Source: Muribaculaceae bacterium
GTDB taxonomy: Bacteria > Bacteroidota > Bacteroidia > Bacteroidales > Muribaculaceae
DNA: 41,158 nucleotides
Assembly (NCBI GenBank): GCA_017621225.1
Contig: JAGATN010000031.1
Coordinates: 1 to 41,158, forward strand
Reading direction: 5' to 3'
In this document: positions 19,274 to 38,620 of the stretch, in pieces
Layout of the letters: every line of letters begins with the position of its first letter
How positions within the stretch are numbered: the stretch's first letter is position 1
Notes under the pieces: generated by a model
What the model saw: the letters and a program-made list of their open reading frames with translations, nothing else
The model's database searches: none
Told to the model about the DNA's origin: nothing
Made by a program: the position numbers and the translations under genes

Positions 19274-19304
19274 CAAATATAAGCACAATATGTCTGTTTT
19301 ACAA
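19274..19304 (-). promoter_or_regulatory. Bacteroidota-type promoter for the beta-eliminating lyase gene
   Basis: On the - strand TTG (19304-19302) is followed after 20 nt by TATATTTG (19281-19274). The start of transcription would be near 19267, giving a leader of about 37 nt, too short for a tryptophanase-type leader peptide with attenuator. Confidence 0.65.
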
Positions 19305-19438
19305 GAAAAACGCGCTATTTCCTTCCAATTGCAACGAATCAAGCCCCGAAAAGTTACACATCGACACGCTTACGCCGACACCGCACATCTCCTGCATAAC
19401 GCACCGACGGCGCGGCCAACGGCGCGCGCATCACGTCA

Positions 19439-20137
19439 TCAGCCATATTTGCTTATGCGGCGCAATTCTTCTTCGTCAAGAATTTTTATCTGTCGGCCGT
19501 CAACCACTATTATCTTGTCCTCCACAAAGCTGCTGAGCGTGCGTATGGCATTCGAAGTGGTCATGTTCGAGAGGTTGGCGAGATCTTCACGGGCCATATA
19601 TATGTGGAGCGTAGCGCCGTCATCCTCGTAGCCATAGTTTTCCTTAAGCACTATGAGAGCTTCGGCCAAACGGCCTCGTATGTGTTTCTGCGTGAGGTTT
19701 ACGGTTCGCGTATCGGAGCTTCCGAGGTTGCGGGCCAATTCATGTATGAAAAACCACGCCAGCCGTCGGTTTCCATCTATCAATTCGGCCACGAGCGACA
19801 TGGGCAACGCGCCAAGATCCGACTCCTCGATGGCCACTGCCGTGTGCACGTATGGCTCCTGCGCAAAATATGCTCTGTAACCGAAATACTGAACGGGGCG
19901 CAAAAGTCTCAATATCTGTTGACGCCCGCCAACGCCATCCTTGTAAAGCTTTGCTTTTCCCTTAAGCAGACACCAGAGATATTCGGGCGTTTCGTCCTCG
20001 GCATATATTATCTGATTTTTCTTAAAATGACGTATTGTGAAATTATCCGTAATCTTACGCTTCTCTACGCTATCCAATATTGTCCATATTTCCGACAAAT
20101 CATCATTTATAACCTGACCGAGAGTGTTTTTTATCAT
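19439..20137 (-). CDS. Crp/Fnr family transcriptional regulator
   Basis: The 232-residue protein has an N-terminal cyclic-nucleotide-binding-type beta-barrel (about 28-120: IIYAEDETPEYLWCLLKGKAKLY, ILRLLRPVQYFGYRAYFAQEPY) and a C-terminal winged helix (about 160-222), whose recognition region is MAREDLANLSNMTTSNAIRTLSSF. There is no N-terminal cysteine cluster, so an oxygen-sensing [4Fe-4S] Fnr type is unlikely. The signal and targets are unknown. It lies between the respiratory block and the lyase gene, on the same strand as both, so control of either is possible but not shown. It is 208 bp upstream of the lyase start; I see no clear terminator between them. Confidence 0.9.
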   Translation of the reverse strand: MIKNTLGQVINDDLSEIWTILDSVEKRKITDNFTIRHFKKNQIIYAEDETPEYLWCLLKGKAKLYKDGVGGRQQILRLLRPVQYFGYRAYFAQEPYVHTAVAIEESDLGALPMSLVAELIDGNRRLAWFFIHELARNLGSSDTRTVNLTQKHIRGRLAEALIVLKENYGYEDDGATLHIYMAREDLANLSNMTTSNAIRTLSSFVEDKIIVVDGRQIKILDEEELRRISKYG

Positions 20138-20223
20138 AATTGTATAACATATCTGCTTATAATCATGCTAAGTTACGCATTATTATCTAAAAATCAACTA
20201 TATGCCGACATTTAATATGCGGC

Positions 20224-20256
20224 GACGCGTCTACGGGGATGGCCCGTAGACGCGTC
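20224..20256 (-). terminator. Perfect palindromic hairpin after nuoN
   Basis: GACGCGTCTACGGG (20224-20237) and CCCGTAGACGCGTC (20243-20256) make a perfect 14-bp GC-rich stem with a GATGG loop, 30 bp after the nuoN stop codon and 86 bp before the regulator start. It most likely ends the respiratory transcript, although only a weak A/T stretch follows. Confidence 0.65.
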
Positions 20257-20285
20257 AGCACATTCTATGTCAATATTTTAAATGC

Positions 20286-21737
20286 TCAAAATGAAATTTC
20301 AAGCAAATGATTGTAAATGCAGCTTACAACGCCGAGCAGCAGAATGCCACCCACGCATATCCACAATGCGAAACGTTCGGAGCAAGCGCTGCGGAAGGTT
20401 GCCACGGTGCTTTCTTCGTCGCTGATAAACATTGCCTTCACCACAAGCAGATAGTAGTAGAGCGAAACGATTGTGTTTATCAACGCTATGAGCACCAATA
20501 CGTAAATGGCCACCGAGCCTTGGTTGATGGCGCTCGTGAAGATGAAGAACTTGCTGAAGAATCCTGCAAACGGCGGAATGCCGGCAAGAGAGAACATAGC
20601 AAGCATCATCGTAAACGCCAATCGAGGATTGGTCTTGTACAATCCGTTGTAGTCCTCCATATTCACCTTGCCCGAATTGTTTTCGATGGCGCCAATTACG
20701 CCGAATGCAGCCAAGTTTGAGAATATATAGACGAGGATGTAGTACATCAGAGCAGCCATACCCATGCCGTTAAACGCTATGACGCCGAGCATTATGTAAC
20801 CGGCCTGCGAGATGGACGAGAATGCGAGGAATCGCTTCATGTTGCGCTGACGGATGGCAAACAAGTTACCGATGGTGATGGTGAGTATTATCAGTGCATA
20901 GAGCATCCACTCCCAAGCAAAGGTGTAAACGCATCCGAACACTTGCCACAGCACCACGAGGAATGCAAATGCAGCCGCGCCCTTCGATATGACCGAAAGG
21001 TATGATGTGACCGGCGTGGGAGCGCCCTGATACACATCGGCGGTCCACAAATGGAACGGAACGAGCGAAAGCTTGAATCCGATGCCCGATATCACGAATG
21101 CGAGAGCCACCACAAGCAGTGCATTGATGCCATCGCCCATCATGAGCGCCGTTGCTATCTTGCCGAAGTAAAGCGATCCGGTAAGGCCATACACGAACGA
21201 CAGGCCCATGAGGAATATCGCCGACGAGAACACGGCGGTAAGCACGTATTTCACGGCCGCTTCACGGCTCTCGTAACGGTGCTTGTCGAAAGCCACCATT
21301 GCAGCCAACGGAAGCGATGCGGTTTCGAGACCGATGATGAACAACAGGAAGTGACGAGCCGAAATCATGAGGTACATACCAAACAGCGTGGTAAGCAGCA
21401 ATTCATAAAACTCGCCGCGACGTATCCTGACCAGATCCTGATCGGCCCAACGCATGGCTTGTATCATCACTATCAATGCGCCAATGTTGAGTATGGTCTT
21501 TATGTTCGCGATGACGGCCGAAGTGGCATACATGCCGCTGAAAGCCGTTTCGACGGGCGAATCAAACACCGACGGGCAGAAGCCGTAGGCCACAAACAAT
21601 GCAAACAGCACGCTCGACACCGTGCCCAACGCTCCGAGCGAACGCTTGGGCATGAACGTGTCATATAGGAAAACTATAAGAAACACGGCCAACAGACCGA
21701 TTTCTTGCTTCATTACTAAAAACTGTGAGTAATCCAT
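20286..21737 (-). CDS. nuoN: NADH-quinone oxidoreductase subunit N
   Basis: One of three antiporter-like proton-pumping subunits in the membrane arm of complex I. The 483-residue protein is almost entirely hydrophobic with about 14 helices. Typical are GLETASLPLAAMVAFDKHRYESREAAVKYVLTA (the Glu and Lys of the proton channel), PFHLWTADVYQGAPTPVTSYLSVISKGAA and RFLAFSSISQAGYIMLG. It begins 15 bp after nuoM and is the last gene before the hairpin at 20224-20256. Family length and motifs are complete. Confidence 0.96.
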   Translation of the reverse strand: MDYSQFLVMKQEIGLLAVFLIVFLYDTFMPKRSLGALGTVSSVLFALFVAYGFCPSVFDSPVETAFSGMYATSAVIANIKTILNIGALIVMIQAMRWADQDLVRIRRGEFYELLLTTLFGMYLMISARHFLLFIIGLETASLPLAAMVAFDKHRYESREAAVKYVLTAVFSSAIFLMGLSFVYGLTGSLYFGKIATALMMGDGINALLVVALAFVISGIGFKLSLVPFHLWTADVYQGAPTPVTSYLSVISKGAAAFAFLVVLWQVFGCVYTFAWEWMLYALIILTITIGNLFAIRQRNMKRFLAFSSISQAGYIMLGVIAFNGMGMAALMYYILVYIFSNLAAFGVIGAIENNSGKVNMEDYNGLYKTNPRLAFTMMLAMFSLAGIPPFAGFFSKFFIFTSAINQGSVAIYVLVLIALINTIVSLYYYLLVVKAMFISDEESTVATFRSACSERFALWICVGGILLLGVVSCIYNHLLEISF

Positions 21738-21752
21738 TGGTTTCTCTTCTTA

Positions 21753-23261
21753 TTAGTTCATGCCTATCACCGCAAAGATTGAAGGGCTGAAAGTAAACTT
21801 AATCAAATCGGCAAAGAAGTTGGGGAAACAACCGATTGCCGCTACACTTATTATGAGCGTAACCGTTGAAGTGCGTTCCCACCATTCGGCATCGGTAAGC
21901 GACAGATGATGTTCGTCCTGAACCGGGCCAAACAACAGCTTGCCAACCACGCGCAAGATGTAGACGGCCGTTATCACGATAGAACAGCAGGCCACGATGG
22001 TGAACACGCGATGGAACATATCGGCATGCTCGAACGAGCCTACGAATATGGTCATTTCAGCTACGAATCCGCTCAATCCCGGCAAGCCGAGCGATGCCAT
22101 ACCGGCTATCACGTAGCATACCGCAAGGAAAGGCATTATCTTCATCAAGCCGCCCATCAGACGAATGTCGCGAGTGTGGGTGCGGCCATATATCATACCT
22201 ATCAATGCAAAGAACAGGGCCGTCATCAAGCCGTGCGAAAGCATCTGCATGATGGCACCGGTCATTGCGGTGGTGTTGAGCATCAATATGGCAAAGAGCA
22301 CCAAGCCGCAGTGGCTTACCGATGAATATGCATTTATATATTTAAGGTCGGTCTGAACGCATGCGCTAAACGCACCGTAAACCACCGATATGCCGGTAAG
22401 TATAAGGAATATCCAGGCCAAGTCCTGTGCAGCCTCGGGCATCAGATAGATGGCTACGCGGAAACATCCGTAACCGCCAAGCTTCATAAGCACGCCCGCA
22501 TGGAGCATCGAAACCGCCGTAGGTGCCGAAGCATGACCGTCGGGGCTCCAAGTATGGAACGGGAACATGGCACCAAGAACGCCGAAACCAACAAACGTCA
22601 TCGGGAACAAGAAATATTGCCAACCCTTGTCGATCGATGCGTTGTTGACGATTTCGAGCAAGTTCCAAGTCAAAGGCTGTCCTTCGGGAGCCGAATGATA
22701 GTAGATGCCTATAAGGCCGAGCATCAGGAATGCCGAGCCGCCCATGAGCATCAGCGTAAGCTTCATTGCCGAATAGTTCTTGTTGCCACTGCCCCACACG
22801 CCTATGAGAAGATACATAGGTATGAGAGCCACTTCATAGAACATGAACATAGTAAACAAGTCGATGGAGATGAAGAATCCGAACACTCCGGTGGAGAGCA
22901 ACACCAACCAAAGGAAAAATTCCTTGGGAAGCGGATTGATTTTCCATGAAGCGAAGCTGCCGGTAAGAAGTATTATCGACGAAAGTATCAGCATGGCCAC
23001 CGAAATGCCGTCGACGCCAACGGCCAGATTGATGTTGAGCGGGCCAAACCAACTCCACGAGTCGGTATAGAGCATCGGCGCCGTATTGCCGGCGGCGCGA
23101 AGCTGCATATAGTCAAGCAGCAGCCACACCGAAAGCGCCGTGAGCGCAAGCGCACCGACAACGGCTACCGCGCGGATCTGCTTAATGTTCCGGCAGAGGG
23201 CGAGGCCCCCGAGCATGATCAGGGGTATCACCACAAAATAAATCAATATATTGGAAAACAT
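21753..23261 (-). CDS. nuoM: NADH-quinone oxidoreductase subunit M
   Basis: Antiporter-like subunit of the complex I membrane arm. The 502-residue protein has about 14 membrane helices. Signatures are GVDGISVAMLILSSIILLTG, MFYEVALIPMYLLIGVWG (the key helix-5 Glu), FPFHTWSPDGHASAPTAVSMLHAGVLMKLGGYG and LKYINAYSSVSHCGLVL. It lies 37 bp after nuoL and 15 bp before nuoN. The start at MFSNILIYF gives the normal N-terminus for the family. Confidence 0.96.
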   Translation of the reverse strand: MFSNILIYFVVIPLIMLGGLALCRNIKQIRAVAVVGALALTALSVWLLLDYMQLRAAGNTAPMLYTDSWSWFGPLNINLAVGVDGISVAMLILSSIILLTGSFASWKINPLPKEFFLWLVLLSTGVFGFFISIDLFTMFMFYEVALIPMYLLIGVWGSGNKNYSAMKLTLMLMGGSAFLMLGLIGIYYHSAPEGQPLTWNLLEIVNNASIDKGWQYFLFPMTFVGFGVLGAMFPFHTWSPDGHASAPTAVSMLHAGVLMKLGGYGCFRVAIYLMPEAAQDLAWIFLILTGISVVYGAFSACVQTDLKYINAYSSVSHCGLVLFAILMLNTTAMTGAIMQMLSHGLMTALFFALIGMIYGRTHTRDIRLMGGLMKIMPFLAVCYVIAGMASLGLPGLSGFVAEMTIFVGSFEHADMFHRVFTIVACCSIVITAVYILRVVGKLLFGPVQDEHHLSLTDAEWWERTSTVTLIISVAAIGCFPNFFADLIKFTFSPSIFAVIGMN

Positions 23262-23298
23262 AAATTACTATATTTTTTGATTTGCACCATTCTACTTA

Positions 23299-25284
23299 TC
23301 ACAATATGCACACTGCGGTGATTGCGCCGAGCGCCAAAGCTCCGATAAGATAAATCCATACATACATCTGTATGCTGCCGCTCTGAAGTCCGCGTATGGC
23401 ATACGATGCCTTGTTGGTAACGTAGGCAAAGCCATCCATGGTGCCGTCGATGATGTGACGGTCGAACCACGCTATCGGACGGCAGATGCCGTTGAATATG
23501 ATCTTATGCGTGATGAACATATAGAGTTCGTCCCAATAGAAGCGATGGTGACACCAGTCCCACAACGTAGGCATGGCATTTTTCATCTTCGCGGGCAGAG
23601 GATTTTCCTTCATGTACATCTTGGCCGCAACAAGTATGGCCACCACTGCTACCAAAAGGCTCACGGCAGCTATGCTCCAGTCGAAATGGCCGAACAAATC
23701 ATACGGTTCGCCGTTCCAGCTAACGAAATTGCCAAACGGTATCAAACCGGCCACGGTGGCTATCGCTGCAAGTATCACGAGCGGCAGCGTCATGGTCCAG
23801 GGCTGGTCATGAGGAGTATGGTGTCCTTGACGAACGGGGTGTTCCTTCCACCAGAAGATGAGGAAGTACAGACGGAACATATAGAACGCCGTAAGAGCTG
23901 CTACCATCGACATCCAGAGATAAGCAATCCAACTGTTGCCGAAGCATGCGCTCAATATTTCGTCCTTTGAGAAGAAGCCGGAGAATGGTATGATGCCCGC
24001 AATGGCCAGACAGCCTATCAGGAACGTCACGTGCGTTATGGGCATGTATTTGCGAAGGCCGTGCATTTCGGTGTAGTCGTTCGATCCGATGGCGTGGATG
24101 AGCGCACCGGCACCGAGGAACAACAACGCCTTGAACATGGCGTGCGTAAACAGATGGAACATCGAAGCCATGTAGCCGAGACCTTCATGGAAGTTAGGAT
24201 CGGCAACGCCGAGCGACACCATCATGAACGCTATCTGCGATATGGTCGAGAATGCCAAAACGCGCTTTATGTCGATCTGCGTACAAGCCACCATTGCGGC
24301 ATAGAACGCCGTAACGGCACCAACCACGGTTATTATCACCATGGCCGAATGCTCCATGAGATAAAGCGGGAACAAGCGCGCTACCAAGTATACGCCGGCC
24401 ACCACCATCGTAGCGGCATGTATCAATGCCGATACAGGGGTCGGGCCTTCCATTGCATCGGGAAGCCATATGTGGAGAGGAAGCATGGCCGATTTACCCA
24501 TGCCGCCCATGAATATGAGCACCAATGCCCACGTAAGCACCGAAGCGCCCATGAATATCGGAGCTTCGCTGCCGGCTATGAGGTTCTTTATGCCCTGTGC
24601 GGTGTCGAGGCTTACGCCATAAACGCCGTCGGCAACGGGAGCCGAGGTAAAGTCGGTGAAGTTAAACGTTCCGGTGTAGAACGACAATATCAGTATGCCT
24701 ATCAGGAAGCCCAAGTCGGCAAAACGGGTTACGATGAATGCTTTCTTCGATGCCGACACTGCCGAAGGCTTCACATAGTAGAAACCGATGAGCAAGTATG
24801 ACGAAGCACCCACGAGCTCCCAGAAAATGTACATCTGGAAAATGTTGGTTGCCACCACGAGGCCGAGCATTGAGAAGCTGAACAACGACAGGAACGCATA
24901 GAAACGCTGGAAGCCGTGTTCGTAAACGCCATGATGGTCGCGCATGTATCCGTTGCTGTACAAGTGAACCATAAACGATATGGTGGTGATCACAACCAGC
25001 AGCAACGCCGAAATCGGATCGAGAAGGAATCCGAGACGTATCACAAGATTGTCGTAGAACTGAAGCCAGTCGACATTAAACACTATATACTGCAATCGCT
25101 GCCCTTCGGAGCTCACGAAATCGGGGCTGCCTGAAAAGAAATAAGTGAATGCAGTGAAATAAGCCAACACAAGCGTTACGCCCATACCGGCTGTGCCCAA
25201 AATTCCGGCAAGTTTATGGCTCATCTTCATCCCGAGCAAACCGAGAATCAGAAACATACACAACGGTATGGCCAATATTAGCAA
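23299..25284 (-). CDS. nuoL: NADH-quinone oxidoreductase subunit L
   Basis: The distal antiporter-like subunit, with the long lateral helix at its C-terminus. About 661 residues are visible, with FWELVGASSYLLIGFYY, LPLHIWLPDAMEGPTPVSALIHAATMVVAGVYL and RVLAFSTISQIAFMMVSLG. The start is uncertain. The frame is open back to the nuoK stop codon (25309-25311), and the in-frame upstream residues DFVIPLL extend the first helix as expected, but there is no ATG or GTG there. The codon where an ATG would fit (25300-25302) is AGG. The first possible start is TTG at 25284, given here; the first ATG is at 25257. Confidence 0.92.
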   Translation of the reverse strand: MLILAIPLCMFLILGLLGMKMSHKLAGILGTAGMGVTLVLAYFTAFTYFFSGSPDFVSSEGQRLQYIVFNVDWLQFYDNLVIRLGFLLDPISALLLVVITTISFMVHLYSNGYMRDHHGVYEHGFQRFYAFLSLFSFSMLGLVVATNIFQMYIFWELVGASSYLLIGFYYVKPSAVSASKKAFIVTRFADLGFLIGILILSFYTGTFNFTDFTSAPVADGVYGVSLDTAQGIKNLIAGSEAPIFMGASVLTWALVLIFMGGMGKSAMLPLHIWLPDAMEGPTPVSALIHAATMVVAGVYLVARLFPLYLMEHSAMVIITVVGAVTAFYAAMVACTQIDIKRVLAFSTISQIAFMMVSLGVADPNFHEGLGYMASMFHLFTHAMFKALLFLGAGALIHAIGSNDYTEMHGLRKYMPITHVTFLIGCLAIAGIIPFSGFFSKDEILSACFGNSWIAYLWMSMVAALTAFYMFRLYFLIFWWKEHPVRQGHHTPHDQPWTMTLPLVILAAIATVAGLIPFGNFVSWNGEPYDLFGHFDWSIAAVSLLVAVVAILVAAKMYMKENPLPAKMKNAMPTLWDWCHHRFYWDELYMFITHKIIFNGICRPIAWFDRHIIDGTMDGFAYVTNKASYAIRGLQSGSIQMYVWIYLIGALALGAITAVCIL

Positions 25285-25308
25285 AGGTATTACAAAATCC
25301 CTAGCGCC

Positions 25309-25620
25309 TTAAAATTTCATTTTTTTGAGGTCGGTGACATCGATATTCTTTGCTGCGCGGAACACATTGATTATAATGGCAATGGCCAGAGCCGTTTCAG
25401 CTGCGGCAATTGCTATTGCAAACAACGTGAAGAACATGCCTTCCATCTGTCCCGGAAACAGGTATCGGTTAAACACCACGAAATTAATATCTACCGCATT
25501 GAGCATAAGCTCCAGCGAAATCAGCATTGCAATCATGTTTTTACGGGTAAGGAATCCGTAGACTCCACAGCAAAACATGATCAACGTCGGTATCAGGTAA
25601 TAGATCATAGTCGTTTCCAT
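25309..25620 (-). CDS. nuoK: NADH-quinone oxidoreductase subunit K
   Basis: A small three-helix subunit (103 residues from the ATG at 25620; another ATG at 25608 gives 99 residues, closer to the usual 100). It has the buried Glu in LISLELMLNAVDINFVVF, part of the central proton path, and ETALAIAIIINVFR with the second conserved Glu. It starts 10 bp after nuoJ. Its stop codon is in the same frame as nuoL, 24 bp before the first usable nuoL start. Confidence 0.95.
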   Translation of the reverse strand: METTMIYYLIPTLIMFCCGVYGFLTRKNMIAMLISLELMLNAVDINFVVFNRYLFPGQMEGMFFTLFAIAIAAAETALAIAIIINVFRAAKNIDVTDLKKMKF

Positions 25621-25630
25621 AAGCAATCAA

Positions 25631-26146
25631 TTATCTTTTACGGGCGACTACAACGCCACCGATTATACATGCGAGCAACAACACACTGACTGCCTCGAAC
25701 GGTAGAAGATACTGACCGTCGCCCGATCCCATAAGCGTAGTGCCTATCGTCTTCATATCGGGATTGCTCATTTGAGGAAGCTTAGTGCAAAGCATTCCAC
25801 AACGGCTCACCAATGCGTAGCCGGCAATGACCAGCGTGGCGACAGACGCTACCAGGCCCAACACTCTGCGACGCGACACGAGGCGCTCGCTGTTGTGGCC
25901 GGGATGAGAGGTAAGTAATATCGAAAACACGAACAGCACCACTATACCGCCTGCGTACACCGCTATCTGCACGGCTCCCAAAAACTCGTAGTCGAGCTTG
26001 AAGTAAAGTGCCGCCGTGGCAAAGAGCGTGAACAGCAGATACGTGGCAGAGCGCAGAATCTTGCGCGTAGTGACAGTCAGTACCGAAAATACGACAATCG
26101 ACAATGCGATTATCCAGTACATAATTATACTTCCTACTGATTCCAT
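25631..26146 (-). CDS. nuoJ: NADH-quinone oxidoreductase subunit J
   Basis: The 171-residue protein has about five membrane helices and the family segment TTRKILRSATYLLFTLFATAALYFKLDYEFLGAVQIAVYAGGIVVLFVFSILLTS, in parts, which covers the conserved third helix with its pi-bulge (YAGGIVVLFVF). NuoJ couples quinone reduction to the pumping subunits. It starts 9 bp after nuoI and is followed 10 bp later by nuoK. Confidence 0.95.
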   Translation of the reverse strand: MESVGSIIMYWIIALSIVVFSVLTVTTRKILRSATYLLFTLFATAALYFKLDYEFLGAVQIAVYAGGIVVLFVFSILLTSHPGHNSERLVSRRRVLGLVASVATLVIAGYALVSRCGMLCTKLPQMSNPDMKTIGTTLMGSGDGQYLLPFEAVSVLLLACIIGGVVVARKR

Positions 26147-26155
26147 ATCTGATGA

Positions 26156-26761
26156 TTAGTTATTATTATCGGTTTTAGGAGCCGATGCGGCACCCGCGCC
26201 TTCGGCTGCTGCCTTCTTGGCGGCGGCTGCAGCTTTTGCAGCGGCTATCTTGGCTTCGCGCTCGGCCTGAATGCGGGCAAGTTCTTCGGGCGACGGAGCC
26301 GGTTCCTCTACTTCGGGAAGATAGTTGAGCTTCTTCACGAGCTTGTCGCGAGTAAACACTGCCTGCTCGAAGTCGTTTGAAAACTCAAGCGCATTCTGCG
26401 GACACGAAGTAACGCACAGCTGGCAGAACGTACAGCTGCCAAGGTCATACATATACTTGTCGAGCTTACGCTTTTTCTTACCGTCGGCCGTATCGACCAT
26501 CTTTGTGGTCAACGAGATGGTTCCATTCGGACAATTACGTTCGCAAATGCCACAAGCTATACACTTGTGACGGCCGTCGGCATCATACTTAAGCTCCAGT
26601 ATCGCGCGGAATCGCTCCGGAACTTTTACGGTGTCGCGGTCCTCAGGATATTTTTCTGTAATCTTAGGGGTGACAAATTCCTTGCCGGTAACCTGCATGC
26701 CTTTTACGAGGCTTACTATTCCCGACCCTAATGACGAAAAATAATCTTTTACACTACCCAT
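26156..26761 (-). CDS. nuoI: NADH-quinone oxidoreductase subunit I (two [4Fe-4S] clusters)
   Basis: Carries the N6a and N6b clusters that pass electrons towards the quinone site. The first motif is CIACGICERNCPNG (C67, C70, C73, C77), the second CTFCQLCVTSCPQNA (C110, C113, C116, C120). After about residue 150 the protein has a tail of roughly 50 residues rich in Glu, Ala and Lys (IAAAKAAAAAKKAAAEGAGA), which is longer than in most bacterial NuoI. It is the first nuo gene after the embedded atp genes, 45 bp after atpG. With no NuoEFG present, NuoI and NuoB are the only iron-sulfur subunits of this complex in the window, so NuoI is the likely entry point for electrons. Confidence 0.95.
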   Translation of the reverse strand: MGSVKDYFSSLGSGIVSLVKGMQVTGKEFVTPKITEKYPEDRDTVKVPERFRAILELKYDADGRHKCIACGICERNCPNGTISLTTKMVDTADGKKKRKLDKYMYDLGSCTFCQLCVTSCPQNALEFSNDFEQAVFTRDKLVKKLNYLPEVEEPAPSPEELARIQAEREAKIAAAKAAAAAKKAAAEGAGAASAPKTDNNN

Positions 26762-26806
26762 AGACTTTAATGATATTGTTTTAATTTCTTTTCTTCATTT
26801 ATTATT

Positions 26807-27688
26807 TCATCTGACCTGACCGCCCAATATGTCGAGCAGCTCGGTCGTAATGCTTTGTTGTCGCAGCTTGTTGTACTCCAGGCGAAGCTGCTCAAGCAAC
26901 TTCTTGGCGTTGTCGTTGGCGCTTTGCATTGCCATGACTCTTGCCGCCTGCTCCGAGGCGCGGTTTTCGGTAAACACCTCCTGCATCACCGACATGATAA
27001 ACATCGGCAGCACCGAAGTGAATATCGTGGCCGCGTCGGGCTCGAATATGTAGGGCCGACTCTGAACGGTCACGCCATTGGTGGCAAACGTCTGAGCCAC
27101 GACGGGAAGCAATTGCTCGGCCTTGGGCACTTGACGGCTCACGCTCTTGAAGTTCATATAAAGCACGTCGACGCAATCTACGCTGCCATCTATGAAACTT
27201 GCCTGAAGGCGTTCGGTGAAAATCCGCACTCCGTCGCCGGTTGTTTTCGAATCGACTCCGGTGTTAAACTCCACCGACACCGTGCCGTCCGACAGGCGCG
27301 ACACGGCCTTGGCCATTTTCTTGCCTATTGGATACACCGTCACCTTGACGCCGCTGCCATACAATGCCTTATATTCGGCCAAACGGGCAAGCAACTGCTT
27401 GTATATGTTTACGTTGTAGGCTCCACACAGTCCATCGTCCGAACCAAACACCACTATGCCCACGCGATTTACCTCGCGCGACTCAATCAATGGCGACGAA
27501 AACTCGGCATCTGCCGAAAGAATGTTTCCTATGATTGATTCAATCTGCGTGCGAAACGGGAGCAAACGCTTCAGAGCCAATTCCGCCTTGTGCATCTTGG
27601 CCGAAGATATCATCTTCATTGCACCGGTAATCTTCTCTGATGAAGCTACCGATCCGATTCGTCCTTTTAGTTCGCGTAGAGTCGACAT
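26807..27688 (-). CDS. atpG: ATP synthase F1 subunit gamma
   Basis: The central rotating shaft of F1. The 293-residue protein begins MSTLRELKGRIGSVASSEKITGAMKMISSAKM, the usual N-terminal coiled-coil helix, and ends with the matching C-terminal helix (SANDNAKKLLEQLRLEYNKLRQQSITTELLDILGG). The middle has FGSDDGLCGAYN, the Rossmann-like domain signature. It is the last atp gene, 14 bp after atpA and 45 bp before nuoI. Confidence 0.96.
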   Translation of the reverse strand: MSTLRELKGRIGSVASSEKITGAMKMISSAKMHKAELALKRLLPFRTQIESIIGNILSADAEFSSPLIESREVNRVGIVVFGSDDGLCGAYNVNIYKQLLARLAEYKALYGSGVKVTVYPIGKKMAKAVSRLSDGTVSVEFNTGVDSKTTGDGVRIFTERLQASFIDGSVDCVDVLYMNFKSVSRQVPKAEQLLPVVAQTFATNGVTVQSRPYIFEPDAATIFTSVLPMFIMSVMQEVFTENRASEQAARVMAMQSANDNAKKLLEQLRLEYNKLRQQSITTELLDILGGQVR

Positions 27689-27702
27689 CGTTTATATTAT
27701 GC

Positions 27703-29277
27703 TTAATTATATCTACTTGATATTTCCTGTGCGGCGCTCGTAAGCTTTTCGGTCACATCGTCAGTGAGCTTTCCTGACTTTATCACGTCAAGCACATCTT
27801 TCTGATACTTGGCGTGAAGGAGCTGAAGCAACAGGCTTTCAAACTCGGCCACCTTGTCGAGAGGCACGTTTTCGAGCAATCCCTTCGTTCCGCAATAAAT
27901 CACGGCAACTTCATCTTCCACTGCTATGGGATGATATTGCGGCTGTATGAGCAGACGTTCGTTCTTGCGGCCCTTGTCGATGACGCGCGCAGTCACCGGA
28001 TCGATGTCGCCGCCAAACTTGGTAAACGATTCGAGTTCTCGGAACTGAGCCTGATCGATCTTCAACGTACCGGCCACCTTTTTCATCGACTTTATCTGAG
28101 CATTGCCACCCACACGCGACACCGATATGCCCACGTTGATCGCGGGACGGATGCCTCGGTTGAACAATGCCGTTTCGAGGAATATCTGACCGTCGGTGAT
28201 CGAAATCACGTTTGTGGGAATGTAAGCCGAAACGTCGCCGGCCTGTGTCTCGATGATAGGCAAAGCCGTAAGCGAACCGCCGCCCTTCACGAGGGGCTTC
28301 AATGGTTCGGGAAGGTCGTTCATGGCCGAAGCCACCTCCTGATTGTCGATTATCTTTGCGGCACGTTCCAACAAGCGCGAATGCAGGTAGAAAATGTCGC
28401 CCGGATAAGCTTCGCGGCCCGAAGGACGCTTCAGGATAAGCGAAATCTCTCGATAAGCCACGGCCTGCTTCGAAAGGTCGTCGTACACTATCAATGCGTC
28501 GCGACCGGTATCACGGAAATATTCACCGATGGCCACGCCGACAAAAGGCGAATAGTAGCGCATCGAAGCCGAGTCGGATGCCGTGGCGGCTACCACTACG
28601 GTGTAATCGAGCGCACCGTGCTGGCGCAGCGTTTCGACCGTCGAAGCCACCGACGATGCCTTCTGACCAATGGCCACGTATATGCAATATACCGGTTTAC
28701 CGGCTTCGTAAGCCGGACGCTGGTTAATTATCGTATCAATGGCGATGGCCGTCTTTCCTATCTGACGGTCGCCGATTATAAGTTCGCGCTGTCCGCGACC
28801 GATGGGCACCATCGAGTCGACAGCCTTGATGCCTGTCTGCAACGGCTGATTGACGGGCTGACGGAATATAACGCCGGGAGCCTTGCGTTCGAGGGGCAAA
28901 CGCATCAGATCGCCCGAGATGGAGCCTCGACCGTCGATAGGTTCGCCAAGAACATTTATGACACGGCCAAGCAAGCCCTCCCCTACGGGAATCGAAGCTA
29001 TCTCGCCCGTGCGGCGCACCGACATATTCTCGGTAACTTTATCTACATTGTTAAGCAATATGACACCGACATTGCTTTCTTCAAGATTCAGGGCCACTCC
29101 CTTCACGCCGTTTTCGAACTCCACGAGCTCATTGGCGCACACGTTGTCAAGCCCATACACGTGGGCCACGCCATCGCCTACTTCAAGCACTGTGCCGGTT
29201 TCTTCGAACGACACTTTAGAGTTTACGTTTTCGAGCTGCTGCTTTAAAACTTCGGATATCTCGCTGGGGTTTATCAT
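27703..29277 (-). CDS. atpA: ATP synthase F1 subunit alpha
   Basis: The non-catalytic nucleotide-binding subunit of F1. The 524-residue protein has the P-loop GDRQIGKT (169-176), VYVAIGQ-type segment [14 protein letters not shown], the Walker B region [16 protein letters not shown], and the alpha-subunit signature [14 protein letters not shown] with the arginine finger. Length and order of motifs are normal. It starts 7 bp after atpH. Confidence 0.97.
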
Positions 29278-29284
29278 TATAGTT

Positions 29285-29830
29285 TTATTTGCTTAATAAT
29301 TTCAATCGCAATTGCTTTAATTCGTTGCTTATCGAAGCATCGAAGCGTTCGTTGTTGATGTTGACGACGAAGCCGCCCAACAATTCGGGATCCACGCTGC
29401 CGGTATATTCCATCGTTCCGCCATCGAGATGCGTCATGATGATATCCTTTAAGCGTTTCTCCTCCGAAGGCTTCAACTCACTCGCCGAAACCACGTTGAC
29501 CACATATATCTTGCGTTCCTTTCTATAAAGGTCGATATATGCCAGCGCAATGCCGTGCGCAAGATTGAGGCGATGATTTTCGGCAAGCAATTTCATAAAA
29601 TCAAGCATGCATTCATCGCCGGCACCGTCGCCCGAAGCAGTTAGAAGCAACGACTGCTTGTCGGCCGACGATATGAAAGGATTGCCCAATGCCTCCTGCA
29701 ACGACGGAGCCGATGAAAAAGCGTTGGCTACGTTTCTCATCAGTTCGTACATACGTTCAGCTTGCCCCTTTTCAAGAGCAAACCCGTAAAGGGCTTTGGC
29801 ATATCTGCGTGGTATCAGGCCTTCGTTCAT
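29285..29830 (-). CDS. atpH: ATP synthase F1 subunit delta
   Basis: Peripheral stalk subunit that holds the alpha/beta hexamer still. The 181-residue protein begins with the helical N-terminal domain ([16 protein letters not shown]) and ends with the C-terminal domain motif [29 protein letters not shown], which identifies the family. It lies 9 bp after atpF and 7 bp before atpA. Confidence 0.95.
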
Positions 29831-29839
29831 TGCGATTGC

Positions 29840-30337
29840 TTAATTTTGTTTTTCCATATCGTCAAGCAGCGAATCGACGAGTCGACTCTGTGCTTTCTGA
29901 TCTTTCATTTCGTTGCGCACCACCTTGGCGGCAATGTCGAGAGCAAAAGCGCTCACTTCATTGCGGAAACTCAGTTCGGCCTCTTTGCGTTCCTGTTCGA
30001 TCGACACTTTGGCCGCGTCCATGACTTTCTGAGCTTCTTTCTGAGCCGCCATACGGGCATCTTCGATAATCTGAGTTTTCATTTTATCGGCTTCGCGAAG
30101 CATTTCTGCCTGCTGACGACGCGCATCGACTATGTATTTCTCTGCCTCTTCGCGGGCATGATCAAGCTGCTCTTTGGCATTTTGAGCGTACTCCACACCT
30201 TTATCGATGAGGTCGGCACGGCTTTCAATCCCCTTGATGATCACGGGCCAGCCCCATTTGTACAACACAAAAAAGAGCACGGCAAATGCCACGAACATCC
30301 AGAATATCAAGCCAAAATCAGGCGTGAACAGTTCCAT
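29840..30337 (-). CDS. atpF: ATP synthase Fo subunit b
   Basis: The 165-residue protein has one N-terminal membrane helix (about 7-27, FGLIFWMFVAFAVLFFVLYKWGWPVI) followed by a long charged helix that forms the peripheral stalk with delta (heptad-like pattern with EEAEKYIVDARRQQAEML). The sequence is typical of Bacteroidota b subunits. It lies between atpE and atpH, 15 and 9 bp away. Confidence 0.95.
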   Translation of the reverse strand: MELFTPDFGLIFWMFVAFAVLFFVLYKWGWPVIIKGIESRADLIDKGVEYAQNAKEQLDHAREEAEKYIVDARRQQAEMLREADKMKTQIIEDARMAAQKEAQKVMDAAKVSIEQERKEAELSFRNEVSAFALDIAAKVVRNEMKDQKAQSRLVDSLLDDMEKQN

Positions 30338-30352
30338 AGCCTAAAAAACCGC

Positions 30353-30604
<252 letters not shown>

Positions 30605-30631
30605 TTAGTTTTAGGTTTGTTATTATTATAT

Positions 30632-31747
30632 TTATTTGTTTTCAATTATTTGCGGTTGTAGTTGTTCAGCTCCCTTTTCATGCTGCTCATGCCCGTGCTC
30701 CTGACCAAACGAAATGAACAGCGTGGAGAGCATCGTGAACACATATGCCTGAATGAAGCTCACCAACACGTCGATAAGCAACATAAATATGGAGAAAAAC
30801 ACCGACATCACAGTGGTGGCACCGGTCACAACCGGACCCATGGCCGCGAAAATGAATATGAGCAGCGTCAACACTATGACTATCATGTGGCCACCGAGCA
30901 TATTGGCAAACAGACGCACCGTAAGCGCCGCCGGCTTGGTGAACACGCCGAATATTTCGATTACCGGCATTATGGGAATCGGCACCTTGAGCCACATGGG
31001 CACGTCGGGCCACAACACTTCTTTCCAATAATGCTTGGTGCCGAATAGGTTCGTAACCAAGAAAGTGAGTATTGAAAGCACGAGGGTCACGGCTATGTTG
31101 CCGGTAAGGTTCGCGCCTCCTGGAAATATCACTATCAATCCCAATAAGTTCATATACAATATGAAGAAAAACACCGAAAGCAGGTATGGCGCAAACTTCT
31201 GAGCCCTGTCCTTGAGCGTGGGACGTATCACCCCATCGTAGATGAACGATATGAGCGCTTCGATGATTCCCACCACCTTGCGGGGAGCCTTCATTGCCAT
31301 ACGCTTGTGCCAACGAGCCACGGCAAGCACGCTCCACATCACGAGGATGACAGCTATGAACACGCCGCACACGTTTTTGGTAATCGAGAAATCCCACGGA
31401 CGATATTCCTCGCCGTCAACCATCTCAACCACCTTTCCCTTGTATTTGCTATCCTTGCCGGCTATCTTGAACACGGCGTCTCCGTCGCGATATTCCTTTC
31501 CTTCGGCCAAACGCGAGGAGCTGAAGCAATGCAATCCGTCCTTTCCGAACACTATTATCGGAAGGGGCATGCGCTTATGGTGATTGAAGGGCACTTCCCA
31601 TCCATAACCGTCGCCAAGATGTTCGAAAATGATTTCTTTGGGATCAATCTTGCCCGCATCGCCGCCATCCGAAGCCTTTATGCCTCCGGGAAACGAAAAT
31701 GCCATGACAAGCATCGTCAAGATGAGAACCGCTTTCTTCATATTCAT
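30632..31747 (-). CDS. atpB: ATP synthase Fo subunit a with N-terminal periplasmic extension
   Basis: The a subunit forms the two proton half-channels against the c ring. The C-terminal part has TVRLFANMLGGHMIV with the essential arginine and the following Gly/Asn pattern, and ends with a His-rich tail (EHGHEQHEKG). Before the first Fo helix there are about 130 extra residues: a signal-peptide-like start (MNMKKAVLILTMLVMAFSFPGGIKA) and a soluble part containing FEHLGDGYGWEVPF. This long form is known in Bacteroidota. I chose ATG 31747, where it overlaps the atpC stop as TGATG; ATG at 31759 and 31741 are alternatives. Confidence 0.94.
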   Translation of the reverse strand: MNMKKAVLILTMLVMAFSFPGGIKASDGGDAGKIDPKEIIFEHLGDGYGWEVPFNHHKRMPLPIIVFGKDGLHCFSSSRLAEGKEYRDGDAVFKIAGKDSKYKGKVVEMVDGEEYRPWDFSITKNVCGVFIAVILVMWSVLAVARWHKRMAMKAPRKVVGIIEALISFIYDGVIRPTLKDRAQKFAPYLLSVFFFILYMNLLGLIVIFPGGANLTGNIAVTLVLSILTFLVTNLFGTKHYWKEVLWPDVPMWLKVPIPIMPVIEIFGVFTKPAALTVRLFANMLGGHMIVIVLTLLIFIFAAMGPVVTGATTVMSVFFSIFMLLIDVLVSFIQAYVFTMLSTLFISFGQEHGHEQHEKGAEQLQPQIIENK

Positions 31748-31980
31748 CAATAAATGCATACTGACACCACGTTATTGTCGACATCAACCAATCCGCCATT
31801 CACCTCTATTTCGCCCGTATCGCCATTGGCAACGTAGCGCACCACGCCGGCTTCCAAAGTCGAAATCAGCGATGCATGGTTATGAAGCACCATAAACGAA
31901 CCCTGCGTGCCCGGAAGCGTCACAGAATCAACGGTGCCTTCAAAAAGCACATCTTCAGCCGATATTATTTTCAGTGTCAT
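31747..31980 (-). CDS. atpC: ATP synthase F1 subunit epsilon, short form
   Basis: The 77-residue protein consists only of the N-terminal beta-sandwich (LKIISAEDVLFEGTVDSVTLPGTQGSFMVLHNHASLIS) that contacts gamma and the c ring. The C-terminal two-helix domain of about 50 residues, which inhibits ATP hydrolysis in E. coli and Bacillus, is absent. Short epsilon subunits are usual in Bacteroidota. It lies 63 bp after atpD and overlaps the start of atpB. Confidence 0.94.
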   Translation of the reverse strand: MTLKIISAEDVLFEGTVDSVTLPGTQGSFMVLHNHASLISTLEAGVVRYVANGDTGEIEVNGGLVDVDNNVVSVCIY

Positions 31981-32043
31981 ATATACTGTTTATGTTTCTT
32001 ACTAATTTCACACTATAACATTCTCGTCAAAGGCAGGGAATCA

Positions 32044-33573
<1,530 letters not shown>

Positions 33574-33578
33574 TTATA

Positions 33579-34655
33579 TTAAAAATGCAAACCATAGACG
33601 ATGACAAGCACCATCAGAACCAAATTGAACAAGTTGATAGGCAACAGGTACTTCCACTCCAATGAAAGCATTTGGTCGATTCGAAGACGCGGGAACGTCC
33701 ACTTAAACCATATTATGACAAATGATAATGCCACGGCCTTGCCTATGAACCAAACCACCGACGGAATGTAGTCCATCACGTGATTGAATGCATCCCAACC
33801 GGGGAAGTGCAACGGCATCCATCCGCCGAAGAAAAGGAGCGTAGCCACGCCTGCCACGATGAACAGGTTGAGGTATTCGGCGAGGTAGAAGAAGCCGAAG
33901 TGGATGCCCGAATATTCGGTATGATAACCGGCGGTAAGCTCGCTCTCGGCCTCGGGAAGGTCGAACGGGCCACGGTTTGTTTCAGCCGTTCCGGCTATGA
34001 GATATATGATGAATGCTATTATTGCCGGTATGTGTCCCGAGAAGATGAACCACAAATCCTGCTGCTTGGCAACGATTTCGGTTACCGACATCGAACCTGC
34101 CAGACATACCATGGTGATTACCGACAATCCGATTGAAAGCTCGTAGCTGACCATCTGCGAACCCGAACGCAATGCACCGATAAGCGTAAACTTATTGTTA
34201 CTTGACCATCCGGCCAGCAGAATGCCGAGCACACCTATCGACGAAACGGCAATCAGGAAGAAAATGCCTATGTTGAAGTTTATTATCTGCAAGCCATTAC
34301 CCCACGGCAACACTGCAAATGCAAGCATCGAAGCCAATATGACGAGATATGGAGCCAATGCAAACAAAAATTTATCGGTGTGCTTGAGCGAGATGAGCTC
34401 CTTGATCAAAATCTTGAACATATCGGCAAAACTCTGGAGCAATCCCATCGGGCCGACTCTGTTCGGGCCCAGGCGGCACTGGAAAGCAGCACACACCTTA
34501 CGCTCAAACCATATGTAGAAGAGCGCCAATAATGCATAAGCCAACAGCAGACACACGCCTATCAGCACGCATTCGGTGGTAACAGTGAGCCATTCAGGCA
34601 TGAAAGAGCTGAGCAGTTCATGTATCCAATTGGTAAGCAATGAAAAATCAAACAT
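33579..34655 (-). CDS. nuoH: NADH-quinone oxidoreductase subunit H
   Basis: The membrane subunit that forms most of the quinone tunnel. The 358-residue protein has eight or so helices, with [36 protein letters not shown] (about 51-86, the quinone-site loop) and [37 protein letters not shown]. Both signatures are intact. It is the last nuo gene before the embedded atp genes. Confidence 0.97.
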
Positions 34656-34724
34656 AATTTACTATATTTATGCGAGGTTTATACCTTTTTACTTTGTCAC
34701 ATTCTCAAATTCACCCTTACGAAA

Positions 34725-36353
34725 TCAACGGTCCATGTCGGGTACTATGTAGTCCAGCGAGCCACCGATTGTAATCAAGTCGGCTATCTTGTTTCCACTG
34801 GTGATGTGATCGACCACGGCGGCGGCAGGCAGCGACGGGGGCACTATCTTCAAACGATAGGGCGACGTAGCACCATCGCTTTCGAGGAATATGCCGAACG
34901 TTCCACGGCAGCCTTCCACCTTGCGGAACCAATGACCTACGGGGAGCTTCAGCACCTTCGGCACCTTCACGCAATATTCGCCATCGGGTATGTTGTCGAT
35001 GAGCTGCTCTATTATGCGCGCGCTCTGCGTTATTTCGTCGAGGCGCACCTTAAAGCGTGCCATCGAGTCACCTTCGTGGCGTATCACTTCGTCAAATTCG
35101 AGTTCGCCATAGATGCTGTACGGATCGGTTTTGCGAACGTCGCAAGCCCAACCCGAAGCACGTCCCGACGGACCGGTAACGGCCCACGAAATGGCGTCTT
35201 CGCGCGACAACACGCCCACGCCTTCCATGCGGTTCTTGGCTATGATGTTGCCGGTAAATATCTGATTGTATTCCTTTATGTTCTTTGGTATGACAGCCAG
35301 GAGAGCCTTTACGTCGCTCACGAAGTCGGGGTGCAGATCCTGCATCACGCCGCCTATGCACTCATAATTGAATGTCATTCGGGCTCCACACGTTTTCTCC
35401 ATTATGTCGAGAATCTGTTCGCGAACGCGAAGCGTGTAGAACAGCATCGTGGTGGCACCCAAGTCCATACAGAACGTACCCATGAACAAGCAGTGCGATG
35501 CGATGCGCGAAAGCTCGTCCATCAACACGCGTATCACTTGTGCGCGGCGCGATATCTCGATGCCGGCAGCCTGCTCTATGGTCATACACAGACAGTGGTG
35601 ATAGGGATGGGCCGAGAAATAGTCGAGACGGTCCATGAAATGGAGCGTCTGCGGATAGGTCAGCTTTTCGCATATCTTTTCGATGCCGCGATGAATGTAG
35701 CCCATGTATACGTCGATTTTCTTGATGGTCTCGCCATCAACGGCCGTACGGAAACGCAACACGCCGTGCGTTGCAGGGTGCTGCGGGCCTATGTTCACCA
35801 CGAAATCGTCGGCTTCGAATACGCGGGTTTCGCGTTTTTCCACCTTACCGTCTTCAAGCTCCACGTAAGTGTCGGTGTAGTCGCTCTGACGTTCATTGTC
35901 GGTAGGCACCGGATTGGTTTCGGGACTTTCGTCATAATCCTTTCGCAAGGGGTATCCCTTCCAATCTATGCTGAGGAACAAACGGCGCATATCGGGATTG
36001 CCGATGAACACTATTCCGAAGTAGTCGTAAACCTCACGTTCGAAAATTCCGGCTATCGCCCACAGATCGGAAATACTGTGAAGCATGGGGTTCGAACGGT
36101 CGGCGGTGGTAACCTTTACCGATATTTTAGCATTATTGCGCGTCGATGTCAAATAATATATGCATCCGAGGGTTTCCTTCCAGTCCATTCCGACTATCGT
36201 CACGAGGAAGTCGAAGCTCAGGTCGGCGTCGTCGCGAAGCGTACGAGCCAGATTGTGCCATTTTTCGTCGGGGATATTTACCAGTAGCGTATCGCCCTGC
36301 TCAAATGTCGCATCGGGAAACAATTTGGCTATTTTTTCCTGAATGTCTGCCAT
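34725..36353 (-). CDS. nuoCD: NADH-quinone oxidoreductase subunits C and D, fused
   Basis: A single 542-residue protein. Residues about 1-160 are NuoC (EREVYDYFGIVFIGNPDMRRLFLSIDWKGYPLRKDY) and about 180-542 NuoD, with NIGPQHPATHGVLRF near the quinone site, MGYIHRGIEKICE, and the invariant end DYIVPDMDR. In E. coli the two are also fused; here the junction carries a charged linker (ETNPVPTDNERQSDYTDTYV). It sits 48 bp after nuoB and 69 bp before nuoH. Confidence 0.97.
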   Translation of the reverse strand: MADIQEKIAKLFPDATFEQGDTLLVNIPDEKWHNLARTLRDDADLSFDFLVTIVGMDWKETLGCIYYLTSTRNNAKISVKVTTADRSNPMLHSISDLWAIAGIFEREVYDYFGIVFIGNPDMRRLFLSIDWKGYPLRKDYDESPETNPVPTDNERQSDYTDTYVELEDGKVEKRETRVFEADDFVVNIGPQHPATHGVLRFRTAVDGETIKKIDVYMGYIHRGIEKICEKLTYPQTLHFMDRLDYFSAHPYHHCLCMTIEQAAGIEISRRAQVIRVLMDELSRIASHCLFMGTFCMDLGATTMLFYTLRVREQILDIMEKTCGARMTFNYECIGGVMQDLHPDFVSDVKALLAVIPKNIKEYNQIFTGNIIAKNRMEGVGVLSREDAISWAVTGPSGRASGWACDVRKTDPYSIYGELEFDEVIRHEGDSMARFKVRLDEITQSARIIEQLIDNIPDGEYCVKVPKVLKLPVGHWFRKVEGCRGTFGIFLESDGATSPYRLKIVPPSLPAAAVVDHITSGNKIADLITIGGSLDYIVPDMDR

Positions 36354-36401
36354 ATTAATGATTGGTTTCTTCTGTTACTATATTAATTAAGCGTAGCGGC
36401 A

Positions 36402-37010
36402 TCAATCATCGACGCCTTCTATCGGATGAGCCTTTAAAAATTCCTCTTGTTTTTCCTGACGGTTCACGCCGCCGAAAAAGCGCTCTACTTTTATCTTACG
36501 CGAAAGCTGCATAATTGAATAAATCATAGCTTCGGGACGTGGAGGACATCCGGGGAGATAAACGTCGACGGGAATGATTTTGTCAACGCCCATCACCACA
36601 TGGTACGATTTCTTGAACGGGCCTCCCGACACGGCGCAAGCGCCGCAGGCTATCACGTATTTGGGCTCGGCCAACTGATCATAGAGACGGCGCAACACGG
36701 GAGCCATGCGATGCACTATCGTTCCGGCTACCATTATGAAGTCGGCCTGACGTGGCGACGAACGAGCCACTTCCCATCCGAAGCGGGCCATATCGTAACG
36801 CGCAGCGCCGAGCGACACGAATTCTATGCCGCAGCAGCTCGTGGCAAACGTAAGAGGCCACAACGAATTCGAGCGACCCCAGTTTATGAGTTTGTCAAAC
36901 GTGCCTACTATCACATTGGTGCCATTGGCCTGAAGTTCTTTTACCAGCGACTCGATATACTCGTTGTCCTTCCACGCCTCGTAGGGCATGCTTTTTGTTG
37001 TCACTTCCAT
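36402..37010 (-). CDS. nuoB: NADH-quinone oxidoreductase subunit B (cluster N2)
   Basis: Carries the N2 [4Fe-4S] cluster that reduces quinone. The ligand pattern is complete: tandem C59-C60 in [10 protein letters not shown]125 in [10 protein letters not shown] and C155 in LPGCPPRPE. The 202 residues are normal in length, and the short C-terminus after [11 protein letters not shown] is charged. Its start overlaps the end of nuoA by 10 bp. Confidence 0.97.
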
Positions 37011-37369
37011 TCAAGAGCTCCTTTCCGCCAGGCATACATAAGGCCCAGCACTATGATTCCAAAAAAGATTGCGATGCTCAACAGTCCGTCAACACCCAGT
37101 TCTCTAACTTTTACAGCCCACGGGAACAGGAACACGCATTCAACGTCGAACATCAAGAACAAAATTGCAAACAAATAATAGCCCACTTTAAACTGAGCCA
37201 TACTTTCACCTCGGGTAGGAATACCGCACTCATAAGCTTCTCCCTTTTGCGGATTGAACGATCGCGGTGATATCAACCCTGCAAGCCACAACGCCAACGC
37301 CACCAAGCCAATACCTGTCAGTGCCGCCACGATGGCAAACGTTGAATTTTGAATCGATAAAAATACCAT
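37001..37369 (-). CDS. nuoA: NADH-quinone oxidoreductase subunit A
   Basis: A three-helix membrane subunit (122 residues from the ATG at 37369; the frame is open to a TTG at 37384, which I consider less likely). Signature segments are [45 protein letters not shown], in parts, including the cysteine loop between helices 1 and 2 near the quinone site. It is the first gene of the respiratory block and has a 311-bp non-coding region upstream. Confidence 0.96.
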
Positions 37370-37415
37370 ATTGTGTTTTGTCAAATTATTTCACCGGAGA
37401 AATCTACGCACCAAA

Positions 37416-37434
37416 AACCGTCATTTTGACGGTT
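37416..37434 (-). terminator. Terminator-like hairpin in the nuoA leader (possible attenuator)
   Basis: On the nuo strand AACCGTCA, loop AAA, TGACGGTT, followed at once by TTT. The 8-bp stem and T-run look like a small intrinsic terminator, 47 bp before the nuoA ATG and downstream of the only promoter-like box in the region. Confidence 0.5.
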
Positions 37435-37598
37435 GAGAATGACACATTCAATGGCTTTAAGGTTATATGCATTCAATGGCACTTCGATTTTACACACCAC
37501 AAAGTTATACAAAAGTTCACAAATACCCCACTTTAGCGTATTAAAATTTCAGGTTTTTTCATATTTGAGCCAATTTAGGCTCCATATTGACGACACAA

Positions 37599-37645
37599 AG
37601 CCCTCTGTTGACGACCAACCGATTCGCGGTCGTCAACAGAAGGCT
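37599..37645 (-). terminator. Terminator of the TonB receptor-lipoprotein unit
   Basis: AGCCCTCTGTTGACGACC (37599-37616) and GGTCGTCAACAGAAGGCT (37628-37645) pair over 18 bp with one mismatch and an 11-nt loop. It starts 51 bp after the lipoprotein stop codon and is followed on the - strand by TTTG. Confidence 0.75.
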
Positions 37646-37695
37646 CATGAAATTTCTTGAATAAACGCCGCCGCTTTCGCGGCAAAAAGTCCGGT

Positions 37696-38571: not shown

Positions 38572-38620
38572 TACATTAAAAACTCTTATACTTGTATCTA
38601 TTATCTATGCATCACATTGG

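Follow-up and report, generated by a model that had tools for sequence, protein, structure and literature searches.

The 41,158-bp contig JAGATN010000031.1, which belongs to a 2.5-Mb draft genome of a Muribaculaceae bacterium (47 contigs; 94% complete) and is called the window below, carries a full set of F-type ATP synthase (atp) genes nested inside its complex I (nuo) genes. We estimate the probability at roughly 0.75 that these 18 genes constitute one operon encoding a complete proton circuit, in which an 11-subunit complex I-like quinone reductase would act as the pump and the F-type ATP synthase, the only one that a search of the genome revealed, as the consumer. In this arrangement, transcription would start at a promoter in front of nuoA, cross both nuo/atp junctions and end at a hairpin past nuoN. 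Electrons would pass from reduced ferredoxin or flavodoxin through NuoI, NuoB and NuoCD to menaquinone (NADH is not the predicted donor, as NuoEFG are absent), and NuoL, NuoM and NuoN would pump H+. The protons would return through an H+-type c ring, with the synthesis of ATP.

The basic arrangement is already known, so it is not the novelty it was at first taken for. Ormerod et al. 2016 (PMC4936053) placed the ATP synthase within the complex I locus of S24-7/'Ca. Homeothermaceae' (Muribaculaceae) and reported an ATP synthase in 26 of 30 genomes. Their system, as far as the available text describes it, is from the same family and has the same kind of nesting and the same 11-subunit complex I as the window, whose gene order likewise has the F-type atp genes inside the complex I locus. 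That text devotes one sentence to the nesting, and gene order, junctions, promoter and other families are absent from it. New here are how far the nesting extends (seven families), its probable descent from one event and the pattern of promoter and terminator signals; none of the three turned up in searches of an open-access library that lacks most subscription papers and bioRxiv.

Gene order and junctions of the nested locus

On the minus strand of the window, nuoA-B-CD-H are followed by atpD-C-B-E-F-H-A-G and then by nuoI-J-K-L-M-N. All 18 genes are intact, and each has a separate NCBIfam match, with a Pfam cross-check on four of them. An earlier note made from the DNA letters had described this order on one strand with intact genes, which the family matches confirm, and its gaps of 29 and 45 bp at the two insertion points are both exact. 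The nuoA–nuoN locus shows the single strand, short gaps and conservation by which operons are recognized. Its features are as follows.

37500..37507, minus strand: −7 promoter box TAACTTTG (TAnnTTTG), ~130 bp upstream of the nuoA ATG
37001..37369, minus strand: nuoA; ATG at 37369, with an upstream TTG at 37384 in the list of open reading frames (ORFs)
36402..37010, minus strand: nuoB (family match)
34725..36353, minus strand: nuoCD, fused (family match)
33579..34655, minus strand: nuoH (family match)
33550..33578, minus strand: junction 1, nuoH-atpD, 29 bp (read from the sequence)
32044..33549, minus strand: atpD, beta subunit (family match)
31747..31980, minus strand: atpC, epsilon subunit, 77 aa, N-terminal domain only (family match)
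30632..31759, minus strand: atpB, a subunit (family match starts at about residue 110–134)
30353..30604, minus strand: atpE, c subunit (family match)
29840..30337, minus strand: atpF, b subunit (family match)
29285..29830, minus strand: atpH, delta subunit (family match)
27703..29277, minus strand: atpA, alpha subunit (family match)
26807..27688, minus strand: atpG, gamma subunit (family match)
26762..26806, minus strand: junction 2, atpG-nuoI, 45 bp (read from the sequence)
26156..26761, minus strand: nuoI, with two 4Fe-4S motifs, CIACGICERNCP and CTFCQLCVTSCP (family match)
25631..26146, minus strand: nuoJ (family match)
25309..25626, minus strand: nuoK; listed start TTG, with an ATG two codons inside
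23299..25284, minus strand: nuoL (family match; listed start TTG)
21753..23261, minus strand: nuoM (family match)
20286..21737, minus strand: nuoN (family match)
20224..20256, minus strand: strong hairpin past nuoN, the presumed operon end (14-bp arms at 20256–20243 and 20237–20224)

Among the nested loci, the window included, the gap at junction 1 measures 21–161 bp (median 45; 87 loci) and that at junction 2 measures 6–187 bp (median 47; 63 loci). An Rfam search of window positions 19300–38700 returned nothing up to an E value of 1.

Composition of the two complexes

The complex I is of the 11-subunit kind, with none of NuoE, NuoF and NuoG encoded in the operon. The genome-wide search was for NuoF only, by its FMN domain (PF01512), and the sole match is RnfC, which adjoins RnfB and an RnfD-like ORF (RnfD was judged by eye). 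As NuoEFG are absent, an NADH dehydrogenase is not expected from the nuo genes. NuoI keeps both 4Fe-4S motifs, which makes reduced ferredoxin or flavodoxin the likely electron donor, as judged from the protein sequence. Within complex I, NuoI forms the quinone (Q) module together with NuoB, NuoC and NuoD, and NuoA and NuoH are membrane subunits. The idea that the break between nuoH and nuoI separates off the quinone module was therefore wrong.

Similar complexes have been described elsewhere. In the available text on Desulfitobacterium (PMC11238625), ferredoxin is among the proposed donors. The Nuo of this kind in Bacteroides fragilis is reported, in the part of the source at hand, to be without NADH dehydrogenase activity; mutants that lack it are not impaired in colonisation, and expression of its operon in rich medium is low (PMC7002350). 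Like the window, both D. hafniense and B. fragilis have nuoABCDHIJKLMN without E, F and G (PMC11238625, PMC7002350). However, their operons are described in these texts as nuo only, with no atp genes inside, and nuoC and nuoD are fused in the window, unlike in either of them. That nuo and atp occupy separate loci in Bacteroides, as the earlier note stated, is borne out by the B. fragilis nuo operon (BF638R_0850-0841; PMC7002350, available text).

All eight F-type subunits (alpha, beta, gamma, delta, epsilon, a, b and c) are present in the window. AtpD is single-copy in the genome, and the nested F-type ATP synthase is the only one found. Na+ binding in the Na+-specific 1yce chain involves a Q and the S that follows the Glu; the c subunit of the window has I and G in their places. 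In addition, EGV follows the helix-2 Glu in 77 of 77 pattern-readable AtpE sequences, of 79 in total (70 nested, 9 separate). Since the c subunit is without the Na+-type residues of 1yce and has EGV after the helix-2 Glu, H+ coupling is likely, and the enzyme is likely to be of the H+ type. AtpC (31747–31980) has 77 residues and is without the C-terminal helices, which are inhibitory elsewhere.

Rnf is by the usual assignment a Na+ pump. The Na+ pumps, i.e. Rnf in this genome and Nqr in most genomes of Muribaculaceae according to the available text of Ormerod et al. 2016 (PMC4936053), are encoded outside the nuo-atp operon.

The ordinary Bacteroidales atp operon (atpDC-x-BEFHAG; loci L102, L104, L105 and L107–L110) has all eight genes of the nested cluster, identically ordered, but lies at a locus apart from nuo. 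Of eight separate or unnested loci that were measured, six (L102, L105, L107, L108, L109 and L110) have an atpC-atpB gap of 270–423 bp with a membrane-like ORF (119–142 aa in five loci, 96 aa in L110) in the place of atpI. Pfam searches with this ORF from two of the six operons gave no AtpI match and one sub-threshold TauE match. The gap with the extra ORF is missing from the nested clade, where the atpC-atpB distance has a median of 4 bp and a maximum of 158 (72 loci), and also from L090 (sample family f106) and L104 (f9).

Distribution and origin of the nesting

The nearest named relatives of the window's NuoH are from Muribaculaceae, with the isolate Paramuribaculum intestinale DSM 100749 at 91% identity over 341 residues. 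Judging by these best named NuoH relatives, family f1 of our samples would correspond to Muribaculaceae. Among the best 80 of 241 NuoH relatives, a set skewed to close kin, atpD directly follows nuoH in 78, and the contigs of the other two (L071 and L080) end there. Wherever a named locus contains both atpG and nuoI (54 loci), the two are immediate neighbours in that order. Agreement on this scale goes far past what chance would produce.

A survey of gene order around nuoH and nuoI in Bacteroidales, which the earlier note had proposed, found the nesting confined to seven families of an order sample of 159 genomes. The nested representatives are 11 genomes of families f1, f22, f28, f60, f68, f88 and f109. 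When all members were inspected, nuoH-atpD adjacency was found in 9/9 genomes of f22, 8/8 of f28, 5/5 of f60, 7/7 of f68 and 3/3 of f88, and the one genome mapped in f109 is nested. Both junctions were mapped in eight genomes outside f1, and junction 1 only in the other members of f22, f28, f60, f68 and f88. In total, nesting was observed in 92 of 92 examined genomes of these seven related families. Outside them, none of the 49 nuoH-bearing genomes of the order sample is nested: in their DNA nuoI comes directly after nuoH, with no atp genes between. These comprise 48 genomes with a full-length NuoH (at least 51% identity) and G126, in which NuoH is in two pieces; for the other 99 genomes no such NuoH was listed. 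In a phylum sample of 75 genomes, which includes the window's own, no second nested case was present among the NuoH and AtpD matches listed. In six genomes of family f134 (G233, G245, G249, G265, G284 and G288), the matches listed place nuoH and atpD at a distance of ~9–14 kb, facing each other from opposite strands, an apparently convergent pair of nuo and atp loci.

The history of the nesting was examined in two unrooted trees with sparse outgroups, one of nine Nuo proteins (31 taxa, 1,639 columns) and one of six Atp proteins (29 taxa, 1,911 columns). In each, the nested genomes form one clade with an ultrafast bootstrap of 100, and the branching order of the families is identical. A single nested clade with the same family order in both trees is most simply explained by one origin, with no later replacement of either half between families. 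On these phylogenies a single event is the most likely source of the nesting: in an ancestor shared by the seven families, the atp cluster would have been placed between nuoH and nuoI, where it has since remained.

The position of the unnested genome G163 (family f106) bears on where the cluster came from, as its atp genes, unlike its nuo genes, join the nested clade at 100. Nesting is absent from all 13 f106 genomes that have both NuoH and AtpD, and in the three of them with nuoH and atpD on one contig the genes are 23–68 kb apart. The AtpD type in this family (G163 and 28 others) tracks the presence of NuoH: AtpD is 75–79% identical to that of the window in all 13 genomes with NuoH, versus 66–71% in all 11 with AtpD but without NuoH; five genomes have neither protein at an E value of 1e-60. 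This hints that the nested type of atp travels with nuo even when unnested, but subclades alone may explain the pattern. Both observations speak for a cluster that the nested clade received from another source, at the time of the nesting or shortly earlier, instead of one that moved within the genome. We consider such an acquisition somewhat unlikely, as the trees have few taxa, no root and long branches, and as nuo and atp concur on family order inside the nested clade.

Signals for a single transcription unit

We take TAnnTTTG to be the consensus of the Bacteroidota −7 promoter box. A sigma-70-type scan is unsuited to Bacteroidota and was replaced by a count of this motif. In 68 of 78 nested loci the box lies no more than 200 bp upstream of nuoA (12.9 expected from dinucleotide shuffles). 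Over the same distance, it precedes atpD in 3/86 and nuoI in 1/62 nested loci, and it is found before each of the other internal genes in 0–3 loci, nuoL excepted. With an additional TTG 17–23 bases upstream of the box, the counts are 25/79 for nuoA, 1/87 for atpD and 0/63 for nuoI. As a control, TAnnTTTG lies within 250 bp before atpD in five of eight separate atp operons.

Terminator-like hairpins were scored in 120 nt past each gene with a 40-nt window and a cut-off of −15.9 kcal/mol or stronger. A hairpin at this level follows nuoN in 24/24 nested genomes with enough DNA (median −25.0 kcal/mol, with differing sequences) and in 4/7 unnested nuo operons. The same level is reached past nuoH in 4/86 nested loci. 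Hairpins with a T tract are found past nuoN in 13/24, past nuoH in 4/86 and past atpG in 2/63 nested loci, and past atpG in 3/10 separate operons. The hairpin rates at the two junctions are within the range of the other internal genes (0/60 to 30/71, for genes with at least 60 loci). This is in agreement with the earlier observation of no evident promoter or terminator at the junctions, as neither boxes nor hairpins are commoner there than at other internal gene borders. The box pattern and the nuoN hairpin fit a single nuoA–nuoN unit, short of proof.

Several results weigh against a single unit. Ten of the 78 nested loci have no TAnnTTTG before nuoA, and the box does occur before atpD in the three loci mentioned and before nuoL in 8/60. 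A hairpin at the −15.9 level follows atpG in 9/63 nested loci, and partial termination after atpG is possible. With the limit relaxed to below −12, hairpins are found past atpG in 28/63 nested loci versus 7/10 separate operons, so the contrast at atpG is modest. In the sigma-70-type scan of both strands, promoter-like sites (33 vs 22.7 in shuffles) and terminator-like sites (40 vs 20) were in excess, with one weak terminator-like site at the end of nuoH. Counts of motifs and hairpins are weak evidence; most of the loci come from a single family and are not independent, and promoters of other types would be missed. ATP synthase is usually needed constitutively. The B. fragilis nuo operon is poorly expressed and its loss is harmless to colonisation (PMC7002350, available text), which suggests by analogy that the ATP synthase may need a promoter of its own.

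These points would be accommodated if the nesting were positional only, a frozen accident in which atp, and perhaps nuoI–N, were run mainly by promoters within the coding sequences of nuoH and atpG and the units were regulated apart. The constitutive need for ATP synthase, set against the expression of nuo in B. fragilis, would speak for this, as would the boxes before atpD and the hairpins past atpG. However, a box is about as rare at a junction as before the other internal genes, unlike in the separate atp operons (5/8), and the gap medians hold at 45 and 47 bp across seven families. We consider separate regulation of this kind unlikely.

Under the single-operon reading, a pump and its main consumer would stand under one promoter, which would be unusual. 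A common mRNA alone would not fix the ratio of Nuo to Atp proteins. Codon usage relative to the S1 gene (one reference gene, one genome) showed no difference between atp and nuo (p = 0.90) and is uninformative on unequal output. It is possible, although we propose it only tentatively, that through the nesting the 11-subunit complex I has become obligately tied to the ATP synthase, always made with it from one 18-gene message, perhaps assembled beside it in the membrane, and now part of the constitutive energy machinery. If this were true, a complex I that in B. fragilis has low expression and no phenotype in colonisation would have turned constitutive in the nested clade. A clade fixed for the nesting, together with related families without it, forms a natural experiment on whether the levels of pump and ATP synthase must match, and it also bears on the role of an NADH-less complex I in abundant gut bacteria.

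Integrity of the assemblies

In a sample of 59 f1 genomes from 30 genera, taken from a larger group, AtpG lies 5,795–6,523 bp past NuoH on the same contig and strand in 53. The remaining six are broken by contig ends, with one or both junctions still visible in each: nuoH-atpD can be seen in G006, G045, G047, G048 and G056, and G039 is unbroken from atpD to nuoL. Although the window is a single 41-kb contig of a draft genome and the named relatives are mostly metagenome assemblies, an assembly or binning artefact is refuted by the identical order in isolate-type records (L009, L010 and L022) and in independent assemblies from seven families, including the single-contig genome G338. The nesting is, as the earlier note had it, stable; it is no disruption of either gene set.

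Flanking regions

Directly downstream of the operon, the window encodes a Crp/Fnr-like regulator (19439–20137). A tblastn search (E 1e-6) for this gene in the 1.6–5.9 kb downstream of nuoN gave no match in 15/15 further genomes of the family. At the other end of the operon, a leader of ~120–150 nt between the box and nuoA is common among the loci (37370–37493 in the window). The nuoA leaders of L012, L054, L064 and L076 contain a palindrome resembling CTATCAGAATGATAG, and that of the window contains a AACCGTCA/TGACGGTT hairpin and a T run.

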